Assembly (NCBI RefSeq): GCF_031180965.1
Contig: NZ_JAPSLH010000002.1
Span: forward strand, 186,001 to 250,000
Origin: Chelativorans sp.
GTDB taxonomy: Bacteria > Pseudomonadota > Alphaproteobacteria > Rhizobiales > Rhizobiaceae
DNA length: 64,000 bases
Direction: 5' to 3'
This document shows, piece by piece, positions 25,443 through 37,620 of the stretch. A program made the translations under genes and the position numbers. Each line of letters begins with the position of its first letter. The first letter of the stretch is position 1. The notes below the pieces were generated by a model. It was given only the letters and a program-made list of their open reading frames with translations. It was not told the origin of the DNA and did no database searches.

Positions 25443-26855
25443 CTATGCGCTCGGGCCGCCTGCCGCGCGCCAGCCACCCTCGACATAGGTCTTGCGAACG
25501 GTCTCCACATAGGGGACCGGGCTCACGATGGCGCGAATCTCCATCTGCCTGTGCGGCTCGACGGTCGGCTTGGCCGTGCCGCCATTCTCCTCGCCCCACA
25601 CGAAGATCACTTCCTGGCCCGGCTGGGCATACTCCTCCTCGAGGATAGCCAGCGTCAGCATCTTGCGCTCGTTCGAGCTGTAGCCGACCCAGGTGGAGAT
25701 GCCGACGGTCTTGCCGTTGCCGGTGATCACCTTGTCATAAGGGTGCATGGAATAGACCGCGGACGGGAATTCCATGAACTTGCCGCGCCCGTCGCCCTTT
25801 TCCAGCTGCGAGGCGAAGACGCGGATGACGTCCTCGTTCTCCAGCGCGAGCGTCACCTTCTTGCGGTGCGGCTGCTTGGCGCGCGCTTCGAGCGCCTCGC
25901 GTCCGATGAAGTCGTGATCGAATTTCAGCACATGGCCGTAACCCAGATCCCAGGGCGTCAGGTAGTAATCCTCGATATTGCCGGAGGCGAAGCTGCCACC
26001 GATCGAGGCCTTGGCCTCGTAGCTGTCTTCCGTCAGCCACTCGCGGAAAGCCTTCATGCTCTCGCCCGTGTAGACGGCGGGAAGCGGCGATGGGACCCAC
26101 CCGGATTCCAGCGTGTTGGAGGAATAGGCGCGGCCGCCCACCTGCAGCAGCCCGAATTCCTCGCCGGCCTTCACGAGCGCCTCGCGCACGGCCTCGCCTT
26201 CCGCCCAGGGGCCAAAGAGCTCGTAGCCCGGCTGGCCTGCCATGCCGTGGCGCAGCGCCCGCACCTTCTTGCCGGCGATCTCGATGGTCGTCATGTTGAA
26301 GAATTTCAGTTCCGGCGCCGGACGGCCCGTCGCCTTTTCCACCACCTTGACCGCGTTCGGCCCCTGCACCTGGAAGCGGTAGGACTTGCGGTTGAACGGA
26401 TCGGGCCGCGCGGCCGACCGCTCGTCGAGCTCCACCTTGACGTCGTAGCCGCCGGTCTCCGCATGGAAGCGGACCCAGTTCAGCGCGGGGATGCGGCCGA
26501 CGAGGTTGAAGCTGTTCTCGGCCAGATGGAACAGGATCACGTCGCCGATGACGTATCCGTCATAGCTGCATGGAACGAACTGCTTGGCCTTGTCGACGGT
26601 GAAATTGGCAAAGCTGTTGATGCCCAGATGCGACAGGAGCTTCAGCGCATCCGGCCCTTCCACCGCCAGATCCGCCATGTGGTAGGACTGGTTGAACAAG
26701 ACGCAGGTCTTCTGCCAGGCCGCCTGCTCGTCACGCCAGTTGGTGAATTCAGGCGGGACGCCCGGATAGACGTTCGGTCCGGTCTTCTGGTTGCGGAGAA
26801 GTTTTGCCGGATTGCCGCTCTCCCGCAGCAGGTCCTCGAGACTGCGCTTTGCCAT
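25443..26855 (-). CDS. ligM: LigM-type THF-dependent O-demethylase (GcvT fold)
   Basis: 470 residues, equal in length to Sphingobium LigM and matching it throughout as I recall that sequence (for example PEFTNWRDEQAAW, NTLESGWVPSPLPAVYTG, SFASGNIEDYYLTPWDLGYG, VIFVWGEENGG). It transfers the O-methyl group of vanillate, 3-O-methylgallate or a similar methoxy acid to THF. The fold is that of aminomethyltransferase GcvT. The ATG at 26855 has GGGAGGAAG upstream. It leads the operon ligM-metF-purU-DUF1932 and carries an IclR-like site 29 bases before its start. DesA-type syringate demethylases are close relatives, so the exact substrate is uncertain. Confidence 0.88.
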   Translation of the reverse strand: MAKRSLEDLLRESGNPAKLLRNQKTGPNVYPGVPPEFTNWRDEQAAWQKTCVLFNQSYHMADLAVEGPDALKLLSHLGINSFANFTVDKAKQFVPCSYDGYVIGDVILFHLAENSFNLVGRIPALNWVRFHAETGGYDVKVELDERSAARPDPFNRKSYRFQVQGPNAVKVVEKATGRPAPELKFFNMTTIEIAGKKVRALRHGMAGQPGYELFGPWAEGEAVREALVKAGEEFGLLQVGGRAYSSNTLESGWVPSPLPAVYTGESMKAFREWLTEDSYEAKASIGGSFASGNIEDYYLTPWDLGYGHVLKFDHDFIGREALEARAKQPHRKKVTLALENEDVIRVFASQLEKGDGRGKFMEFPSAVYSMHPYDKVITGNGKTVGISTWVGYSSNERKMLTLAILEEEYAQPGQEVIFVWGEENGGTAKPTVEPHRQMEIRAIVSPVPYVETVRKTYVEGGWRAAGGPSA

Positions 26856-26883
26856 TCGACGCTTCCTCCCAGGTGGAGTGCAA

Positions 26884-26899
26884 TTTCATGTATATGTAA
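26884..26899. promoter_or_regulatory. Probable IclR operator upstream of ligM
   Basis: The sequence TTTCATGTATATGTAA is close to the site in front of the IclR gene (12 of 16 positions). It sits in an 18-base imperfect palindrome (26883-26900, 14 of 18 symmetric) in an AT-rich patch before the minus-strand ligM start. Control of ligM by the adjacent IclR is inference. Confidence 0.5.
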
Positions 26900-26990
26900 T
26901 TCCACACTCATGAAACACAGTGGAAGGCGCCCTGTCAAGCGCGGCACGGCAGAGCTGTGCGCCCGCCGGAAGAACCAGGTTGAGAAGGCC

Positions 26991-27743
26991 CTAGGCCGCC
27001 TCGGTTTCCCGGCAGCTCATCTCATCGATGATGCGGTTGATCTCTCCCGAGACCGTTTTCTCGGTGGATTGCTCGAAGCGGGGGGACGGGATGGCGACGC
27101 TGACGCTGTATTGGGTATCCAGCGCCACGCCGATGCCCATGACGCCGATCGTGTGTTCCTCCCGCGACAGCGCATAGCCGCGCGCTGCCGTAAGGCGCAG
27201 GTCGTAGCGCAGCTTCTGTTCGTCGGCCAGCGTATGCGGCGTGAAGCGCGTGCGCGGCACCTTCGCAAGATAGGCGTCGAGCTCATCCCTCGGCATGGCG
27301 GCCAGCAGCGCCTTTCCGGAGGCGAAGCTGTACATGGGCACGCGCATCCCCCGCTGTGGGGTGAAGCGCAATGCGTGGCTCGACAATTCGACTTCGACCA
27401 CCTCGACGTCGTTATCGCGCCGGATGAAGAGCGAGGCCGTCTCGCCGGTCGCGCGCGCGACGGCGCGCACCATGGCAGCCCTTCGCTCGGTAAGGCTCGG
27501 CGGATTGCCGGACGCCACCCGCGCCAGCGCCGGCCCGATGACATAGGAGCGGTCGGGAGCGGGAGCGAGCCAGTTGCGGCTGACGAGCGTGGTGAGGAGA
27601 TAGGAAAGACTGCTTTCGGGAATGCCCGTCGCGCGGCTGATCTCGCGCGCCGTGGCCGCGCCGCGGCGAGAGACCTGCTCAAGGATATCCATCGCGCGGG
27701 CCGCCGACTTGACAGAGGCGGAGGACTTGTCTTTCATCATCAT
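26991..27743 (-). CDS. IclR-family transcriptional regulator
   Basis: 250-residue regulator with an N-terminal winged HTH (RAMDILEQVS...TAREISRATGIPESSLSYLL, residues about 15-70) and a GAF-like effector domain with SFASGKALLAAM and GVMGIGVALD. Three ATGs stand in a row at the start; 27743 is taken. It lies between the two LigM-type genes, upstream of one in the same direction and divergent from the other. A palindrome ends only 5 bases before its start, which fits autoregulation. Confidence 0.9.
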   Translation of the reverse strand: MMMKDKSSASVKSAARAMDILEQVSRRGAATAREISRATGIPESSLSYLLTTLVSRNWLAPAPDRSYVIGPALARVASGNPPSLTERRAAMVRAVARATGETASLFIRRDNDVEVVEVELSSHALRFTPQRGMRVPMYSFASGKALLAAMPRDELDAYLAKVPRTRFTPHTLADEQKLRYDLRLTAARGYALSREEHTIGVMGIGVALDTQYSVSVAIPSPRFEQSTEKTVSGEINRIIDEMSCRETEAA

Positions 27744-27747
27744 GTAA

Positions 27748-27763
27748 TTTCAAGTACGTGAAA
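27748..27763. promoter_or_regulatory. Operator-like palindrome in the iclR/ligM2 divergent promoter
   Basis: TTTCA-AGTACG-TGAAA forms a 5-base perfect inverted repeat, 16 bases in total, in the 146-base region between iclR and the second LigM-type gene. Similar sequences lie before ligM (26884-26899) and at 13702-13717. It is the best candidate for IclR binding to both divergent promoters. Confidence 0.55.
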
Positions 27764-27889
27764 ACGAGGAAACGGTCAATTCGCCCGCGGATTGCGACGC
27801 CACCTTTCCGCTGGCGGATTCGCCGCCATCTGCGACCAGGATCTGCACCGTAGCGGGATGGCTGGCGACGGCAAGTCCGGGAGGAAAGA

Positions 27890-29248
27890 ATGGCCGCGGA
27901 TAACCTCGAGCAGAAGATCGCGGAGGCAGGCTCCCCGGTGCGGATGATGCGCAGTTCGCAGATGGGCGCCTATGTCTATCCTATACAGGCGGAATTCTCC
28001 AACTGGCGCGACGAGCAGAAGGCCTGGCGCGAAACCGCCGTCCTCTTCGACCAGTCCGTCCACATGACGGACGTGTATTTCGAGGGGCCGGATCTGCTGC
28101 GCCTCCTTTCCGACCTCGGCGTCAACAGCTTCAGGAACTTCGGCCCCAACAAGGCGAAGCAGTATGTCCCCTGCAGCCATGACGGCTATGTGATCGGCGA
28201 CGCCATCCTTTTCTGCCTTGCGGAGGACCGGGCGAGCCTGGTCGGCCGGCCGCCGGTGATGAACTGGGTGGAGTTCCAGGCCAGGACCGGCGGCTATGAC
28301 GTGGCGGTGGACCGCGACGAGCGCGCCGTCGCCAACCGGAGGGGCCGCAGGACCTACCGCTACCAGCTCCAGGGGCCGAACGCCTGGAAAATCCTTGAGA
28401 AGCTGAATGGCGGACCGCTCCCGGAGATGAAATTCTTTGGCATGGGCGAGATCAGCATCGCCGGTCGCAAGGTGCGCTGCCTGAAGCACGGCATGGCCGG
28501 CGAGCCGGGGCTGGAGTTCTGGGGGCCTTCCGAGGAAGGGCCGGAGATCCGCGCGGCCGTGCTGGAGGCGGGCGCCGAGTTCGGGCTGCGGCCTTCCGGC
28601 TTCCGCGCCTATTCCACCAGCGTGCTGGAAGCGGGCTGGATACCTTCGCCCATGCCGGCGATCTATTCCGGCGACAAGATGAAGGCCTATCGGGAATGGC
28701 TGCCGGCCGACGGCTTCGAAGCCATGTCCTCGCTCGGCGGCAGCTTCTATTCGGACAATGTGGAGGACTATTATCTCACGCCCTGGGACCTGGGCTACGG
28801 CCATGTGGTGAAGTTCGACCATGATTTCATCGGCCGCGCGGCGCTGGAGGAGAAGGCGAAGGGGCCGCACCGCAGGAAGGTGACCCTCGTCTGGAACGAC
28901 GAGGACGTCATCCGCATCTGCCTCCTCGGCAAGGGCGAACCGGGCAAATATCTGGAGATGCCGGCCTCCCACTATGCCACCCTGCCCTATGACAAGGTGT
29001 CGATCGGTGGCGAGATCGTCGGCCTCTCCACCTATTCCGGCTACAATGCCAATGAGCGCGCCTGGCTATCGCTCGCCATGATCGACGAGCGCCATGCCGA
29101 ACCCGGCACCAAGGTCGTCCTGACCTGGGGTGAGGAGGACGGCGGCACGCCACGGCCCGTCGTCGAGCGCCATGTGCAGATGGAAGTGCGCGCCACCGTC
29201 GCGCCCTGCCCCTATTCGGCGGTGGCGCGGGAGAGCTACCGGAGCTGA
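27890..29248 (+). CDS. Second LigM/DesA-type THF-dependent O-demethylase
   Basis: 452-residue paralogue of the ligM product, colinear with it along its whole length. Shared segments include FSNWRDEQKAWRETAVLFDQS, SVLEAGWIPSPMPAIYSGDKMKAYREWLP (in part) and DYYLTPWDLGYGHVVKFDHDFIGR. It begins MAADNLEQKIAEAGSP, as LigM does. The ATG at 27890 follows GGGAGGAAAG. Two such enzymes beside one IclR suggest different methoxy substrates, for example mono- and dimethoxylated acids, as LigM and DesA divide the work in Sphingobium (inference). A hairpin terminator follows. Confidence 0.87.
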   Translation: MAADNLEQKIAEAGSPVRMMRSSQMGAYVYPIQAEFSNWRDEQKAWRETAVLFDQSVHMTDVYFEGPDLLRLLSDLGVNSFRNFGPNKAKQYVPCSHDGYVIGDAILFCLAEDRASLVGRPPVMNWVEFQARTGGYDVAVDRDERAVANRRGRRTYRYQLQGPNAWKILEKLNGGPLPEMKFFGMGEISIAGRKVRCLKHGMAGEPGLEFWGPSEEGPEIRAAVLEAGAEFGLRPSGFRAYSTSVLEAGWIPSPMPAIYSGDKMKAYREWLPADGFEAMSSLGGSFYSDNVEDYYLTPWDLGYGHVVKFDHDFIGRAALEEKAKGPHRRKVTLVWNDEDVIRICLLGKGEPGKYLEMPASHYATLPYDKVSIGGEIVGLSTYSGYNANERAWLSLAMIDERHAEPGTKVVLTWGEEDGGTPRPVVERHVQMEVRATVAPCPYSAVARESYRS

Positions 29249-29274
29249 AGATACTTTCCCGCAGGGAACCGGCG

Positions 29275-29299
29275 GGAGTGCCGGACTGGCCGGCACTCC
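29275..29299. terminator. Bidirectional hairpin terminator
   Basis: A perfect 10-base stem GGAGTGCCGG / CCGGCACTCC with loop ACTGG lies between the convergent second LigM-type gene and the SPW-repeat gene. No long T-run follows on either strand, so it is a strong hairpin rather than a textbook intrinsic terminator. Confidence 0.65.
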
Positions 29300-29312
29300 G
29301 CTGGCGGACCGC

Positions 29313-29681
29313 TCAGGCCGTCGAGACGGTGCGGTCATGCGAGTGCCAGAGTTCGGCCCCCGCGAGGATGGCCACGATCGCGCCGATCACGACATGGGTC
29401 ATTGCGGCCCCGCTGAGGTCTGAGAAGCCGAGCGCCCACGGCGCGGCGATCGCCCAGATGCCGGCCACGAGGCTCAGCCATTCCTGCCACGGATCGAAAG
29501 CCGCCAGCGCCCAGATGGCGAGGATCGCGATGATCGCGCCGATGACCCAGGCGTTCCAGGCGGCTGCCGCCGTGCCGGTGAAACCGACCATCCACGGGCT
29601 GAGCGCGAGGCAAAGGCCGGCAATCACCTTGGCAGCATCGAGGACCATGTCCATCGAGCTATTCGTCACGTTCTTCCACAT
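29313..29681 (-). CDS. SPW-repeat membrane protein
   Basis: 122-residue protein with four hydrophobic helices arranged as two repeats. Each repeat carries an (S/A)PW motif: LALSPWMVGF near residue 30 and IAAPWALGF near residue 85, with FDPWQEWLSL between. SPW-repeat proteins have no settled function. The ATG at 29681 has GGAGACG upstream; a longer frame is unlikely. It is the last gene of the heat-shock-type operon. Confidence 0.82.
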   Translation of the reverse strand: MWKNVTNSSMDMVLDAAKVIAGLCLALSPWMVGFTGTAAAAWNAWVIGAIIAILAIWALAAFDPWQEWLSLVAGIWAIAAPWALGFSDLSGAAMTHVVIGAIVAILAGAELWHSHDRTVSTA

Positions 29682-29716
29682 GGTTCGTCTCCTTTCCAGT
29701 CTGACAAGCGCCTCCC

Positions 29717-30025
29717 TCAATGGGAAGCGATCGCGGCGGCAGCCTTTCCGCCGCCGCGAAGCTCTGCAAAATCGTCCGAAACGGGCAGGCTGTCGGGCTT
29801 GTCCTCGGCCTGCGCGCGGCCGGTCAGGAGGTCATGGAGTTCCTCCTCCCGCCAGCTGCCCGCTGCGATCTCCCGCATGGCGATCTCCACATTCGTAGAG
29901 CCGTCAGCCGAAACGAGCGGCTCCGCGCCGCGATTGAGCGCGCGCGTGCGCGCGGCGGCGGCCACCGCCAGCAGGAAGCGGTTGCCCATGAACCGCTCGC
30001 ATTCGAAAGGCAGGAACACGTTCAT
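29717..30025 (-). CDS. RNA polymerase omega-subunit-like protein (RpoZ paralogue)
   Basis: 102-residue protein with a small but clear match to RpoZ over residues 8-70. NRFLLAVAAAARTRAL corresponds to the NRFELVLLAAHRAR helix of omega, then RGAEPLV, then NVEIAMREIAAG for NPVVALREIAD, then EEELHDLL. The first residues differ from housekeeping omega (MNVFLPFECERF in place of MARVTVEDC). It lies 11 bases after the NDUFS4-like gene. Omega normally assists beta-prime folding and ppGpp response; an extra copy in a heat-shock operon could alter RNA polymerase under stress (inference). Confidence 0.72.
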   Translation of the reverse strand: MNVFLPFECERFMGNRFLLAVAAAARTRALNRGAEPLVSADGSTNVEIAMREIAAGSWREEELHDLLTGRAQAEDKPDSLPVSDDFAELRGGGKAAAAIASH

Positions 30026-30036
30026 GCTGCACCTCC

Positions 30037-30516
30037 TCAGGCGGCCCGGCGCGGCAGGTCCTCCGGCGCGGCCGGTTCCGCCGTGCGGCTTGCAACCTCG
30101 GCCAAGGCAGGGAGTGAGGTTTCAATCTGCAATGCCTTCCGCGGACGGATCGCGGGCGATTGGGCCGGCCGCCGGTCAGCTCTGCCGAGCACCGAATAGG
30201 CAAGCCCCTGCCGCTCGGCATAGGCGATGGCCGCGTTGAGCGTGGGGAAGCTCAATTCCACCTGCACGAGCGTGTCGCGTCCGCCCGTCCATCCCATCAG
30301 CGGCTCGACGAAGGGCGGCGTGCGCCGCTCGAAGGTAAGGCGCCACCCGCCGGTCCCGCCGCGCGCCAAGGTCATCACCGACCGGGCCGGCTTCCAGATG
30401 CGTGCGACCGCGTCTTCCGCGAACAGCGAGCGTCCCATGGAAAGGGCCGGCGCTGCCGGCTGGTTGTCATTCGCCGCCGAAGCGGGAGCCGGGACCGCAA
30501 AATTCTTCACGATCAT
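30037..30516 (-). CDS. NDUFS4-like complex I accessory-subunit paralogue
   Basis: 159-residue protein whose middle (about residues 38-112) matches the ETC complex I NDUFS4 family: ARIWKPARSVMTLARGG, WRLTFERRTPPFVEPLMGWTGGRDTLVQVELSF, then AIAYAERQGLAYSV. Flanks are proline/alanine-rich low-complexity tails absent from the standard alphaproteobacterial protein of about 100 residues. It is co-transcribed with hsp20 and the omega-like gene, away from any nuo gene. It may protect or remodel complex I in stress, or have a new role. Confidence 0.75.
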   Translation of the reverse strand: MIVKNFAVPAPASAANDNQPAAPALSMGRSLFAEDAVARIWKPARSVMTLARGGTGGWRLTFERRTPPFVEPLMGWTGGRDTLVQVELSFPTLNAAIAYAERQGLAYSVLGRADRRPAQSPAIRPRKALQIETSLPALAEVASRTAEPAAPEDLPRRAA

Positions 30517-30573
30517 CTGCGCTCTCCTGCGATCAAGGACCGGGCGCGGCCAGTGACGGCCGGCCCAGCAAAG

Positions 30574-31062
30574 TCAGCTTCTGCCGTTGATCGCGATGCG
30601 CTTTGCCTTGCTCTGCGCGCGCTCACTCTTGGGCAGCGTCACGGTGAGCAGGCCGTTCTTGAAATGGGCATTCACCCTGTCCTCATCGATCTCGACGCCA
30701 AGTGGAATGCGCCGCTCGAAGCGCCCATAGAAGCGCTCGCTGAACTGGCGGTCCTTATCCTCGGTCTCCGCCCGCTTCTCGCCGCGCAGCGCCAGCACGC
30801 CGTCCTGGAGCAGGACTTCGATGTCCTTCTCGTCGAGCCCGGGCACCTCGGCGGTGATCTTGATGTCGCGGTCGGTCTCGCTCACCTCGAGGGACGGCCA
30901 GGTCGCGAAGGACGACAAGCTGCCGAAGGAAGTCGGCATGTTGAAGCCGCGGAATGCCTCGTCGAACAGGCGGTTCACCTCCCTGTGCAGGTCCAGGAAG
31001 GGATTGACGGCGGGCGTCTGGCTGTTGCCGCGCCCCCACGGTATGAGATCACGAATGGTCAT
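30574..31062 (-). CDS. Small heat-shock protein Hsp20 (intact copy)
   Basis: 162-residue ATP-independent chaperone. The alpha-crystallin domain covers about residues 55-150, with SETDRDIKITAEVPGLDEKDIEV at its start, GVLALRGEKR, and AHFKNGLLTVTLPK near its end. The C-terminal AKRIAI is the I-x-I-type anchor. It is intact, unlike the copy just upstream, and belongs to a different Hsp20 class (class C-like, with a long N-terminal arm). The 74-base gap upstream holds no ROSE-like leader. Confidence 0.92.
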   Translation of the reverse strand: MTIRDLIPWGRGNSQTPAVNPFLDLHREVNRLFDEAFRGFNMPTSFGSLSSFATWPSLEVSETDRDIKITAEVPGLDEKDIEVLLQDGVLALRGEKRAETEDKDRQFSERFYGRFERRIPLGVEIDEDRVNAHFKNGLLTVTLPKSERAQSKAKRIAINGRS

Positions 31063-31136
31063 GGTCGTTCCTCCTTTCCGGTATCTGCCAGGCGGACGCC
31101 GGCCTGGCCGGCGCCGCCATGATCTGCCGAGCAGGG

Positions 31137-31613
31137 TCAGGCAGCCTGCTTCTGGCCCTCGATCTGCATCGTCTTGTTGGAAGCGGGGAGAGCGTCCGCG
31201 AGCTGCACCTGGATGCGCCGCGGCTTCATCTCCTCGGGGAGTTCCCGCTTCAGGTCGATGATCAGCAGGCCGTTGTTCAGGCTGGCATTCACCACCTCGA
31301 CATAGTCGGCCAGTTCGAAGCGGCGGACGAAGGAGCGGGTGGCGATGCCGCGATGGACATAGTCGCCGCTATCCTCGGCCGATTTGCTGCCGCTCACGAC
31401 CAGCATGTTGGGTTGGTAGGTGATGTCCAGCTCGTCGGGCATGAAGCCCGCCACGGCCATCTTGACCTAGTAGCTGTCATCACCGGTCTTGACGATGTCG
31501 TAGGGCGGCCAGTTGTCGATGGGCTCGACAGTGCTGGCGCGTTCAAGCAGGTCGAAGACCCGATCGAAGCCGATGCTCGACCGGAACAGGGGAGAGAAGT
31601 CCAGAGTCCTCAT
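31137..31613 (-). pseudogene. IbpA-class hsp20 split by an in-frame amber codon
   Basis: Read through, the gene encodes about 158 residues of the IbpA class: MRTLDFSPLFRSSIGFDRVFDLLE, the crystallin domain MAVAGFMPDELDITYQ..., SFVRRFELADYVEV, NGLLIIDLKRELPEEMKPRRI. After GDDSY a TAG (31467-31469) interrupts the frame at the position where family members have the arginine of a Y-R-(I/V) motif. Translation could only resume at the ATG 31460, giving a chaperone without its N-terminal arm and first strand. The start, at 31613, has AAAGGAGGATG and a ROSE-like leader. Either a nonsense mutation or a sequencing error. Confidence 0.85.
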
Positions 31614-31696
31614 AGTCCACATCCTCCTTTGAGCAACATGGATACGAAGCGTCCGGGACATGTGTCCCGTATGTCGGCCCCTCATGGGCGCCGACA
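31614..31696 (-). promoter_or_regulatory. ROSE-like RNA thermometer in the hsp20 leader
   Basis: The 5' leader of the IbpA-class gene has three successive hairpins on the minus strand: TGTCGG/CCGACA (31696-31672), CGGGAC/GTCCCG (31669-31654), and a last, weak stem where TTGCT (31636-31632) faces the ribosome site AGGAGG (31628-31623). A U(U/C)GCU element opposite the Shine-Dalgarno is the hallmark of ROSE thermometers of rhizobial small heat-shock genes. An RpoH-type promoter lies just upstream. Confidence 0.65.
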
Positions 31697-31702
31697 CCGA
31701 TG

Positions 31703-31730
31703 AGATAGGAAGAAATGCCTAGAATTCAAG
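31703..31730 (-). promoter_or_regulatory. RpoH (sigma-32)-type promoter of the heat-shock operon
   Basis: On the minus strand CTTGAA (31730-31725) and CCTATCT (31709-31703) are 15 bases apart, close to the alphaproteobacterial RpoH consensus. Transcription would begin near 31696, giving a leader of about 83 bases before the hsp20 start, the usual length for a ROSE leader. Confidence 0.65.
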
Positions 31731-31768
31731 AGGTTGGACCGGCAAGCTTGGGCGAAGAAGCTCGGGTA

Positions 31769-33626
31769 CTAGGCGGACGGACTTGCGGCGAAAACCCGGT
31801 CCGCAGGCGATTTCGGCCTGACGCCGGTCAGTTCCTTGAGATCCGCCTCGTCCAGTGTCTCCTTGTCCAGCAGCCTCTGCGCCGTGGCATCGAGCACCGG
31901 GCGGCGCTCGCGCAGGAGCTCGACCGTGCGGGCGAAGGCGCTGTCCACGATGCGCCGCACCTCCTCGTCCACGGTGGCCGCGGTCTCGTCGGAGAAATCG
32001 CGCTCGCGCGGGCCGCCGGCCATTGGATTGGGCGTCAGGAAGCTCCGCTGGTCCTTTTCCAGGGCCACGTGACCCAGCTTCTCCGACATCCCGTAGCGCG
32101 TGACCATTGCGCGGGCGATGTCGGTGACCTTGGCGAGATCGTCGGCCGCGCCGGTGGACAGATGACCGAAGACGATCCATTCCGCCGCCCGGCCGCCGAG
32201 AAGGACGGCCATCTTGTTCTCCAGCTCCTCGCGCGTCATCAGGAAGCGGTCTTCCGTCGGCCGCTGGATCGTATAGCCGAGCGCGCCGACGCCGCGCGGG
32301 ATGATCGACACTTTGTGGACGGGATCGACGCCCGGCAGCGCCAGCGCCACCAGCGCATGACCCATTTCGTGATAGGCGACGATCTCGCGCTCGCGCGGAT
32401 TGAGCAGCCGGTTGCGCTTTTCGAGCCCCGCGATGATACGCTCCACCGCGTTGTTGAAGTCCTTCCATGCTGACCGCGTCCGCACCCCGCCTCGTGGCAA
32501 GCAGCGTCGCCTCGTTGACGAGATTGGCCAGGTCCGCGCCGGTGAAGCCGGGCGTCAGCGCGGCGACCTTCTCGGCGTCCACGTCCGGTGCCAGCTTGGC
32601 CTTTTTCATATGCACGTTGAGGATCTGGATGCGGCCGATCCGGTCCGGCCGGTCAACGAGGATCTGCCGGTCGAAGCGGCCGGCGCGCAAAAGGGCCGGA
32701 TCGAGAATCTCCGGCCTGTTCGTCGCCCCGAGCAGGACGAGGCCGGCGGCCGAATCGAATCCGTCCATCTCGACGAGGAGCTGGTTCAAGGTCTGCTCCT
32801 TCTCGTCGTGGCCGCCGGCGAGCGGGCCGATGCCACGGGCCCGGCCGAGGGCATCCAGCTCATCGATGAAGATGATGGCCGGGGCCTTTGCACGCGCCTG
32901 CTCGAAGAGGTCCCGCACCCGCGCTGCGCCGACGCCCACGAACATCTCGACGAATTCGGGGCCGGAGATGGAGAAGAAGGGGACGCGGGCCTCGCCGGCC
33001 ACCGCTTTGGCGAGAAGCGTCTTGCCCGTGCCGGGGGGACCTACGAGCAGGATGCCCTTCGGCATGCGGCCGCCAAGCCTGCCGTATTCGCCGGGATTCT
33101 TCAGGAAGGCGACGATCTCCTTCAGCTCTTCCTTTGCCTCGTCAACGCCCGCCACATCCTCGAAGCGGACGCCGGTATCATGCTCGACATAGATTTTCGC
33201 CTTGCTCCGGCCGATCTGCATCAGCCCGCCGCCGAAGCCAGCGCTCATGCGCCTGAGCAGGAACATCCAGACGCCGATGAAGAGCGCGACGGGGATCACC
33301 CAGGAGAGGATGTTGCTGATCAGCCTGCTCTCGACCTCGCCGGAATAGCGCACGCCGTAGCGCTGCAGCTCCTCGGCGATCTGCGGATCGACGCGGGTGG
33401 TAACGAACTGCGTCTGGCCGCTGGAAAGGGGCTCCTTGAAGCGCCCCTGCATGAACTGGTCCGAGACGGCCACCTCGGCGATCCTGCCCTCGCGCAGATA
33501 CTGCTCGAATTCGCTATAGGCGATGGGCGCGATCTGCTGGCTGGCCGTATAGAGATACTGGAAAATAAAGAGGCCGATAAAGGCAGCGATCCAGTACCAG
33601 ATGTTGAACTGCGTCTGCTTGGTCAT
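31769..33626 (-). pseudogene. ftsH-like AAA metalloprotease with frameshift
   Basis: Full-length FtsH content in two frames. The first frame (from the ATG at 33626) has the two N-terminal membrane segments flanking a periplasmic domain, Walker A GPPGTGKT, Walker [12 protein letters not shown], and the second region of homology ending [12 protein letters not shown]. Then one extra base within 32461-32465 shifts the frame. The correct continuation ([20 protein letters not shown], the zinc site HEMGH, and the tail to 31769) is in the next frame. As written, the first frame runs on in nonsense to 31719 and lacks the protease domain. Corrected length is about 618 residues. Could be decay, programmed shift or sequencing error. 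Confidence 0.85.
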
Positions 33627-33731
33627 GCCTCGTCCCCGTGGCGCGCTTCACCTTCACTCCGACCAATATAGGTGTCCGACGCGGGAGGGCGAAGCGGGGC
33701 AGTTGGGCTCCCATCGGCAGATGTGCCTGTC

Positions 33732-33760
33732 TTGCCATTTGGCATCAACAACGATATATA
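33732..33760 (+). promoter_or_regulatory. Promoter and operator of the Xre/RES pair
   Basis: TTGCCA (33732-33737) and TATATA (33755-33760) are 17 bases apart, a good sigma-70 promoter. The palindrome TGCCA-TT-TGGCA (33733-33744) overlaps the -35 hexamer, and a half-site TGCCA recurs at 33762-33766, downstream of the -10. This suits autorepression by the antitoxin. On the other strand CCTATAT near 33665-33671 could be the -10 of ftsH. Confidence 0.55.
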
Positions 33761-33780
33761 CTGCCAAAGGAGATACAATA

Positions 33781-34194
33781 ATGCCGCGATTGCAGCCAGT
33801 AGAAACCGTGCCGCCGGACTTCACGCCAGAGCCGATCACGGACGACGAAGGCGCCGCCATGTTCCGCGCCGCCGTCAACCTCTTCCGGCTTTGGCGCCTG
33901 ACGGACGAGGAGGCGGCGGTGCTGCTGGACCTGCCGCTGCGGACCTACCGGCGCTGGAAGGCCGGCGCGATGGGTCGGCTCGACCGTGACCAGAAGGCGC
34001 GGCTTTCCAACATCATGGGCATTCACAAGGCGCTGCGCATCATCTTCCGCGAGGCGCAGCGCGGCTATGACTGGATACGATCGCCCAACTCAGCCTTTGC
34101 CGGCCGCTCGGCGCGCGAGGTGATGCTGCGGGGCGAGCTTACCGACCTGATGCGGGTGCGCCGCTATCTCGACGGGGAGCGCGGCGCCTGGTGA
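33781..34194 (+). CDS. Xre/MbcA/ParS-type antitoxin
   Basis: 137-residue antitoxin. An N-terminal HTH-like part (LFRLWRLTDEEAAVLLDLPLRTYRRWKAG, about residues 38-62) is followed by the DUF2384 toxin-binding part with ALRIIFREAQRGYDWIRSP and FAGRSAREVML. The ATG at 33781 has AAGGAGAT upstream. Its stop codon overlaps the GTG start of the RES toxin (GTGA), the normal order antitoxin-toxin. Confidence 0.9.
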   Translation: MPRLQPVETVPPDFTPEPITDDEGAAMFRAAVNLFRLWRLTDEEAAVLLDLPLRTYRRWKAGAMGRLDRDQKARLSNIMGIHKALRIIFREAQRGYDWIRSPNSAFAGRSAREVMLRGELTDLMRVRRYLDGERGAW

Positions 34195-34904
34195 TCGACA
34201 TTGCCGCCGTGCCGGTCTCCCATGTCGAATGGCAGGGCGCGGTGCGGATCATCCGCAGCATCTTTCCGCCGATCGACCTGTTCGAGGATATCGCCGATCC
34301 GGCCGACTGGCCTCTTCTGGTCTCTGCCGAGATGAAGACCAATCCGCGGCTGATGGAGAGCATCGGCAATCTCGACCTGGTGCCGCCCGAGCGCCGGGTC
34401 GCCGGACCTGGCGCGACCTATCTGATGGCGCCCTTCACCCATGTCAGCGCCGACCGGCCGAGCCGCTTCAGCCCGGGCACCTTCGGCGTGCTCTATGCCG
34501 GCAACACCTTCGAAGTCGCCCTGTTCGAGACGATCCACCATCACGCCCGGTTCATGGCGCGCACCAATGAGCCGCCCGGATGGACCTCGCAGTTCCGTGA
34601 GATCGTGCTCGACATCAACGCTCGCCTGCACGATATCAGGGGAGGCGACGACGCCTACGCGCCGCTGCTGAGCCCCGACGACTATTCGCAAGCCCAGGCT
34701 TTCGGCGCGCGCCTGCGCACCGCGGGATCGGAGGGCGTGGTCTATCCGAGCGTGCGCCGCGAAGGCGGAGAATGCGTCGGCCTCTTCTATCCCGACGGAG
34801 CGGCCAATCCCGTCCAGGGCCGCCATATCGACTATCACTGGGACGGCTCACGCGTGGACTTCTACCGCGAGGCCGGCAACGGCCAGGTCTATCGCATCGT
34901 CTGA
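34191..34904 (+). CDS. RES-domain toxin (NAD+-degrading)
   Basis: 237-residue protein, complete for the family. RES toxins break down NAD+. Visible conserved positions are Arg in VRIIRSIFPP near the N-terminus, Tyr in GVLYAGNT, Glu in VALFETIHHH and Ser in EGVVYPSVR. The GTG start at 34191 overlaps the antitoxin stop, so translation is coupled. The pair sits beside a decayed heat-shock cluster, a spot where mobile or addictive modules may persist. Confidence 0.9.
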   Translation: MIDIAAVPVSHVEWQGAVRIIRSIFPPIDLFEDIADPADWPLLVSAEMKTNPRLMESIGNLDLVPPERRVAGPGATYLMAPFTHVSADRPSRFSPGTFGVLYAGNTFEVALFETIHHHARFMARTNEPPGWTSQFREIVLDINARLHDIRGGDDAYAPLLSPDDYSQAQAFGARLRTAGSEGVVYPSVRREGGECVGLFYPDGAANPVQGRHIDYHWDGSRVDFYREAGNGQVYRIV

Positions 34905-37410: not shown

Positions 37411-37620
37411 TCAGAGGGTCAGTCAGACTCCACCGGCATCAGGCCACCCGAAGGACATCCAGTCCGACATCACAGCCTGGAGAAGGCTGCCAGAGGGGCC
37501 CGGCCTGGTGCGACACGCATAGCGGCAAGATATCCCCCGTTCAAGAGGCGTCCAGAGACAACTCTGCTGAATTTTGCTCTTGCTTCCGCGTGACGGCGAC
37601 GGAGGGCATTGTGTTGCAGG

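Follow-up and report, generated by a model that had tools for sequence, protein, structure and literature searches.

We analyzed a 64,000-nucleotide (nt) stretch of Chelativorans sp. (assembly GCF_031180965.1, contig NZ_JAPSLH010000002.1, positions 186,001–250,000 of the forward strand), hereafter the window, to whose numbering all coordinates refer. Our subject is a minus-strand unit in which a promoter and a ROSE (repression of heat-shock gene expression) RNA thermometer are followed, in this order, by two small heat-shock genes (hsp20A and hsp20B), a gene for a protein resembling the complex I subunit NDUFS4, a gene for a protein resembling the RNA polymerase subunit omega and a gene for an SPW-repeat protein, with the unit ending at 29313. 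An earlier interpretation drawn from the letters of the window (the sequence-only reading) had proposed that this is one heat-shock unit and had suggested, as an inference, that it protects or remodels two large complexes.

Organization of the heat-shock locus

Gene identities in the window were assigned by Pfam matches to the translated frames, and these recover every gene that the sequence-only reading had placed in the unit. The NDUFS4-like gene (30037–30516; NDUS4, 4.1e-20, profile positions 2–76 of 96) ends in -AA; the omega-like gene (29717–30025; RNA_pol_Rpb6, 2.8e-12) and the SPW-repeat gene (29313–29681; SPW, 3.2e-26) follow it on the same strand. Both hsp20 genes are likewise present, but only the second is intact: hsp20B (30574–31062) has an open frame with an HSP20 match of 7.3e-23 over 30577–31062, whereas hsp20A (31137–31613), which codes for a class A small heat-shock protein, is interrupted by a single in-frame TAG at 31467–31469. 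Its C-terminal piece (match at 31140–31460) carries the alpha-crystallin domain PF00011, as does hsp20B, and the N-terminal piece, taken by itself, gives none in Pfam. The intergenic gaps from hsp20A to the SPW gene are 74, 57, 11 and 35 nt, and an AGGAG-like site precedes all five starts. Elsewhere, the genome codes for a separate canonical NDUFS4 and a separate canonical omega, and it has four Hsp20 genes in all.

Directly 5' of the promoter and on the same strand lies ftsH (31769–33626), in contrast to the 19 of 52 cassettes (defined below) that have it downstream. The window ftsH is frameshifted near 32450–32500, with AAA and FtsH_ext in one frame and Peptidase_M41 in another. The sequence-only reading had noted neither this frameshift nor the stop in hsp20A. 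With these two defects, and with no C-terminal extension on its NDUFS4-like protein, the window cassette looks partly decayed, though the stop and the frameshift could each be an error of the draft sequence.

The control elements claimed for the 5' end of the unit are borne out. The promoter CTTGAA-N15-CCTATCT (31703–31730, minus strand) occurs without mismatch only once in the window; the three further matches have three mismatches each. CTTGAA and CCTATCT-like boxes constitute the RpoH (sigma-32) consensus, and both stand here upstream of a heat-shock gene. Between the promoter and hsp20A, and spanning the ribosome site and start of the latter, is a ROSE element (31607–31695, minus strand) that scores 52.1 bits against the Rfam RF00435 model, above its gathering score of 45, and is the only ROSE match in the genome. 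Its fold (-48.3 kcal/mol, z -4.7) is predicted to cover the ribosome site with a hairpin. Together, the promoter and the thermometer suggest that the cassette is under heat control.

The 3' boundary is less clear-cut. The hairpin proposed there is indeed a perfect 10-bp inverted repeat (29275–29299, with the loop between arms 29275–29284 and 29290–29299) that adjoins a convergent gene, but the terminator scan made no call on the minus strand, and the repeat is at best terminator-like. As for the possibility that the downstream genes have promoters of their own, a scan of 29200–31800 for promoters of the sigma-70 type, the one type covered, found none.

Conservation and spread of the cassette

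The sequence-only reading would have failed had the gene set been confined to this genome; instead, the set recurs in many alphaproteobacteria. Across 201 genomes (that of the window and 200 relatives), an NDUFS4-like paralogue passing an analyst-set threshold of E<=7.4e-23 occurs at 14 places in 13 genomes, distributed as 6/16 in the genus, 5/105 in the rest of the family and 2/80 in the rest of the order. Both hsp20 genes lie upstream at all 13 places other than the window, as against none of the four regions with the next-scoring, canonical-like NDUFS4. In the same genomes, every one of the nine strong matches to the omega-like protein (E<=2.9e-32) adjoins an NDUFS4-like gene, and the next match trails them by about 20 orders of magnitude; seven of these nine places are contained in the alignment (A2) that served as the query.

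A second set consisted of named genomes, namely the best 80 of at least 570 relatives by similarity to the NDUFS4-like protein, so that its counts are not frequencies; five of the 13 relatives' places above are on contigs that recur in these 80 loci, and two genomes contribute two loci each. In 52 of the 80, hsp20A and hsp20B share the strand of the NDUFS4-like gene and lie no more than 2.7 kb upstream of it (hereafter cassettes), while three loci have one hsp20 and 25 have neither. The gap between the hsp20B and NDUFS4 matches has a median of 150 nt and a maximum of 1145. Among the cassettes, 42 code for a C-terminal extension of the NDUFS4-like protein, 30 have the omega-like gene, 31 SPW, 14 DegP, 19 FtsH and four KefB; the complete five-gene order is seen in 27, and the order is maintained across families. 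One omega-like gene (L033) was missed by tblastn and found by profile search. In the 19 loci with a canonical-type NDUFS4 (L115, L117–L122 and L124–L135), not one hsp20 match was found. The conservation counts place the gene set beyond chance and, along with these 19 loci, rule out a fortuitous neighborhood.

The control region recurs with the genes. An RpoH-like motif, its last box mostly CTAAA-like, starts 122–150 nt before the hsp20A start in 31/51 loci (two of 53, L059 and L103, being left out of the count), compared with 11/2550 random 85-base stretches. A strict ROSE pattern caught only 35/55, and a covariance model was used instead. With it, ROSE was found before hsp20A in 51 of the 52 cassettes, the miss being L059, where hsp20A is cut. 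Of the 25 rows behind the model, one is the window and 24 are searched loci; 23 of these loci are among the cassettes and match by construction; outside this set, ROSE was found in 28/29 cassettes. The model found no ROSE in the 19 canonical-type loci, and it also matches before other hsp20A genes (e.g., L088, L089, L101 and L102).

The distribution is patchy in a manner that points to horizontal spread: beyond the scatter over 13 of the 201 genomes, there are near-identical copies in different genera (e.g., L064/L065 and L088/L089) and copies on plasmids. Among 72,556 plasmid records, 101 have an NDUFS4-like match; in 29 of them it spans 80% or more of the query, and many matches are shorter. 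Among the plasmid cassettes that were annotated, the NDUFS4-like gene is itself annotated in four records and unannotated in one. The plasmid-borne cassette of Rhizobium etli NXC12 (L137) is unbroken. A phage origin was rejected, the NDUFS4-like protein having no match in phage records at E 1e-5. In two loci, L116 (a Parvibaculum metagenome-assembled genome) and L123 (Roseitalea), an omega-like gene follows a second NDUFS4 gene, and no hsp20 pair immediately precedes the two; L123 has hsp20, FtsH and DegP genes 3–8 kb downstream.

The NDUFS4-like paralogue

At least two NDUFS4 matches are present in all 16 genomes checked (14 with the cassette and two with the NDUFS4–omega-like pair only), and a second omega in 13 of them, one of these falling under the family cut-off. 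Hence, the claim that both genes are paralogues, i.e., extra copies beside the canonical ones, holds for the window genome and for most of the 16 others.

The core domain of the cassette protein matches NDUFS4 (PF04800; Paracoccus 8qby chain Q and Agrobacterium Atu1810, 2jya) by profile, and W21, L23, P35–G38, T40, D44, Q48 and F53 are retained in 49–53 of 53 cassette proteins. It differs in the loss of the tail: the canonical tail motif is present in 31/32 canonical proteins (of 17 canonical regions, the 13 recognized by pattern were included) and in 0/53 cassette proteins, and the window protein lacks this part of the profile and is not a whole-domain PF04800 member. Further, Q12 is retained in 1/53, and other columns have changed as well. 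The second difference is the C-terminal extension, which is missing from the window protein (alignments A1 and A4). The 43 Foldseek matches at E<=0.001 to the NDUFS4 part were, judged by their titles, either chains from complex I entries or solution structures of the NDUFS4 family. In a model of the L057 protein, weak overall with a mean pLDDT of 65.9, the extension is predicted to be helical; that of L036 has no Pfam or NCBIfam match.

The extension also matches separately, as short stretches near hsp20 genes (L072, L073, L077, L091 and L094), of which the one in L073 has no Pfam match. In Microvirga (L136:14231–14422), matches to it flank the NDUFS4 domain on both sides.

A tree of 94 NDUFS4 rows, made by a quick method from few columns, which limits its reliability, separates 56 hsp20-linked and four unlinked rows (L082, L096, L110 and L136) from 34 others (SH-aLRT 86, midpoint root); the labels change five times, where shuffling gives a mean of 29.7. 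The NDUFS4 genes of L116 and L123 fall on the canonical side. One locus labelled Bacillus subtilis SK6B4 (L133) groups with Brucellaceae rows, and its assembly is perhaps mislabelled or contaminated. The ratio of nonsynonymous to synonymous substitution rates (dN/dS), calculated for analyst-chosen pairs that share rows, is 0–0.33 for the NDUFS4 domain in 13 pairs and at most 0.35 for the omega-like gene in 10 of 11.

The omega-like paralogue

The window omega-like protein belongs to the RpoZ family by its Pfam score (PF01192, 46.9 bits against a cut-off of 26), and its best relative in the PDB by profile is an omega chain (7ye1_E, E 1.7e-11). The omega-like protein departs from RpoZ in being an extra copy and, in most of the rows compared, in its residues. 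Of 36 aligned rows, seven that were partial or frameshifted were set aside; of the 29 compared, 22 are of a derived type in which residues 2, 3, 4 and 5 are kept in 0, 1, 0 and 0 rows, in contrast to the 15/15 canonical rows with ARVT. The window protein begins with MNVFL rather than the canonical MARVT. Other conserved columns are replaced too: only 15 of the 41 that are conserved in canonical omega survive in 19 or more of the derived rows. Among the retained are N15, R16, F17, L19, R26, R28, G33, A49, L50, E52, I53 and A54 (20–22 of the 22 rows), with F17, L19, R28, G33, A49, E52 and I53 kept in all 22; we take the retained columns to face the beta-prime subunit.

In Escherichia coli, omega residues 2–5 coordinate guanosine tetraphosphate (ppGpp) at site 1 of the polymerase, and a polymerase with omega lacking them shows background ppGpp binding only, according to the accessible sections of PMC7676912; the N-terminal motif is named MAR in those of PMC6416229.

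Relationship to known systems

The closest analogs are transmissible loci for stress tolerance (tLSTs), with which the cassette shares its patchy, horizontal distribution, a mobile-island character and two small Hsp20 genes, some cassettes adding FtsH, DegP, a KefB-type antiporter or a thioredoxin-family gene. The tLST core (dna-shsp20-clpG/K), however, includes clpG/clpK, whereas a ClpB/ClpK-type frame was seen in 1/53 cassette sequences, in a scan of the fetched stretches for the D2 Walker A motif that had no positive control. We therefore reject identity with the tLST, the absence of ClpK/ClpG resting on this motif scan. The cassette also differs in its ROSE control and in its NDUFS4-like, omega-like and SPW genes; the words "omega", "NADH" and "alphaproteobacteria" do not occur in the main text of a tLST review (PMC8290217).

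The second comparison is with the ROSE-controlled small heat-shock operons of rhizobia (Bradyrhizobium type), which similarly have an RpoH-type promoter and ROSE before a class A Hsp20 gene. The difference lies downstream, where NDUFS4-like, omega-like and SPW genes belong to the present cassette; this set is not named in the accessible sections of PMC11784457, PMC4167512, PMC3557214 and PMC4971678. The accessible part of a heat RNA-Seq study of R. etli CE3 names the HSP20 genes CH01244 and CH01245, which are not matched to the cassette. While transferable stress islands are already known, we found no description of this cassette, an island combining altered polymerase and respiratory subunits with chaperones and an RNA thermometer, in the open-access literature searched (one library).

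A putative function for the cassette

The gene order, thermosensor, promoter motif, paralogy, residue losses, low dN/dS and patchy spread, all read from sequence, are consistent with a cassette for protein protection that is induced by heat and has spread horizontally among alphaproteobacteria, and whose paralogues would serve as client-specific partners of complex I and RNA polymerase. We favor this reading tentatively, holding it to be a little short of probable, and advance the following mechanism. Upon heating, the RpoH promoter would drive the cassette transcript, and the ROSE hairpin would melt to free the hsp20A ribosome site. The Hsp20 pair would then hold unfolding proteins, while the NDUFS4-like protein might bind the peripheral arm of complex I as a small client-specific partner and the omega-like protein, where present, the beta-prime subunit of the polymerase. 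Each paralogue might stabilize its own complex or direct that complex toward refolding or toward degradation by DegP and FtsH, and these proteases, where present, would clear proteins beyond rescue. The common omega-like type might in addition weaken ppGpp site 1. The accessible sections of PMC5811629 assign omega a chaperone role in the folding of the largest polymerase subunit, in keeping with its position among chaperones here.

Several observations count against this interpretation. The omega-like gene was not found in 22/52 cassettes and SPW not in 21/52, so that an account built on two complexes does not fit them all; three of the 16 genomes checked have a single omega. The window hsp20A and ftsH are broken, and so are further copies: hsp20B in L042/L094 (one contig counted twice), the omega-like gene in L058, L059 and L074, and the NDUFS4-like gene of G005, which has an internal TAG. 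A Sinorhizobium meliloti plasmid copy (L139) carries NDUFS4-like pieces and broken omega-like ones without hsp20. From its sequence, the tail-less NDUFS4-like protein could be one that no longer docks on complex I. On the omega side, A2 and R3 are kept in the other 7/29 rows, one pair has a dN/dS of 1.02, and twelve conserved columns besides residues 2–5 are kept in at most 1/22 derived rows; the loss of residues 2–5 is thus not selective. Further, by the accessible sections of PMC7676912, a polymerase with the omega 2–5 deletion and beta-prime changes still bound ppGpp, and an E. coli strain without omega shows only a modest lag. Of the sequence-only reading, the gene set, order, promoter, ROSE element and paralogy stand; protection or remodeling of two complexes by one unit remains an inference, and simple spare copies are disfavored.

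The last point bears on the best-surviving alternative, in which the paralogues are stress-grade replacements for heat-damaged NDUFS4 and omega in otherwise normal complexes, like the xenologous proteases and chaperones of tLSTs. Parts of both cores are retained, as detailed above, and, by the accessible sections of PMC8290217, the genes of tLSTs complement, expand or replace core functions. However, the lost NDUFS4 tail, the added C-terminal stretch and the many replaced omega columns oppose it: because both paralogues are altered, simple replacement is disfavored, and we consider it unlikely. Judged from sequence, neither paralogue is a mere duplicate of its canonical counterpart.

A bolder version of the partner hypothesis would have a heat-made omega variant displace omega and free the polymerase from ppGpp site 1, with an NDUFS4 variant bearing an added delivery domain that clamps or hands over complex I. 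We regard this as quite unlikely, and somewhat more so because the omega-like protein has also changed outside the ppGpp residues. Were it true, mobile DNA would confer stress tolerance through exchangeable subunits for the polymerase and the respiratory machinery of its host. The cassette itself offers an idea that can be tested directly: a natural paralogue of omega, presumably produced under heat, in which part of the conserved core is kept but the ppGpp-site-1 residues are missing. It also provides a bacterial handle on roles of the NDUFS4 domain outside its usual place.

Very unlikely, in our view, is a role as protease adaptors, with the NDUFS4-like head picking the client, the extension with its -AA end delivering it to FtsH or ClpXP, and the omega-like protein doing likewise for the polymerase. 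C-terminal -AA ends can serve as degradation tags, and they terminate 36/56 NDUFS4-like proteins compared with 33/590 other genes called in the same loci; FtsH or DegP also follows in part of the cassettes. Yet FtsH and DegP are each absent downstream of most cassettes, the omega-like protein ends in -AA in 0/34 cases, and among the 10 extension-less cassettes only two (L086 and L112), plus the window copy, have this end. Class A Hsp20 genes also end in -AA, both within and outside the cassette, which led us to reject a special end for hsp20A.

Finally, that the NDUFS4-like and omega-like genes are mere passengers of a mobile hsp20 cassette that do little, as the absence of omega-like and SPW genes from many cassettes and the broken copies might suggest, seems very improbable given dN/dS values mostly well under 1 (in the analyst-chosen, row-sharing pairs), an order maintained across families and the pair without a directly upstream hsp20 pair in L116 and L123, two loci that the tree places with the canonical rows.

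Neighboring features of the window

Adjoining the broken ftsH, at 33601–34901 on the plus strand, are an Xre/MbcA-type antitoxin gene and, after it, a RES-domain gene; the two look like a toxin–antitoxin pair. Farther along, at 37455–37511 on the minus strand, is a terC RNA (RF03067, 58.7 bits). On the other side of the unit, at 25446–29245, an IclR-type regulator is flanked by two genes of the aminomethyltransferase fold (GCV_T) on opposite strands.

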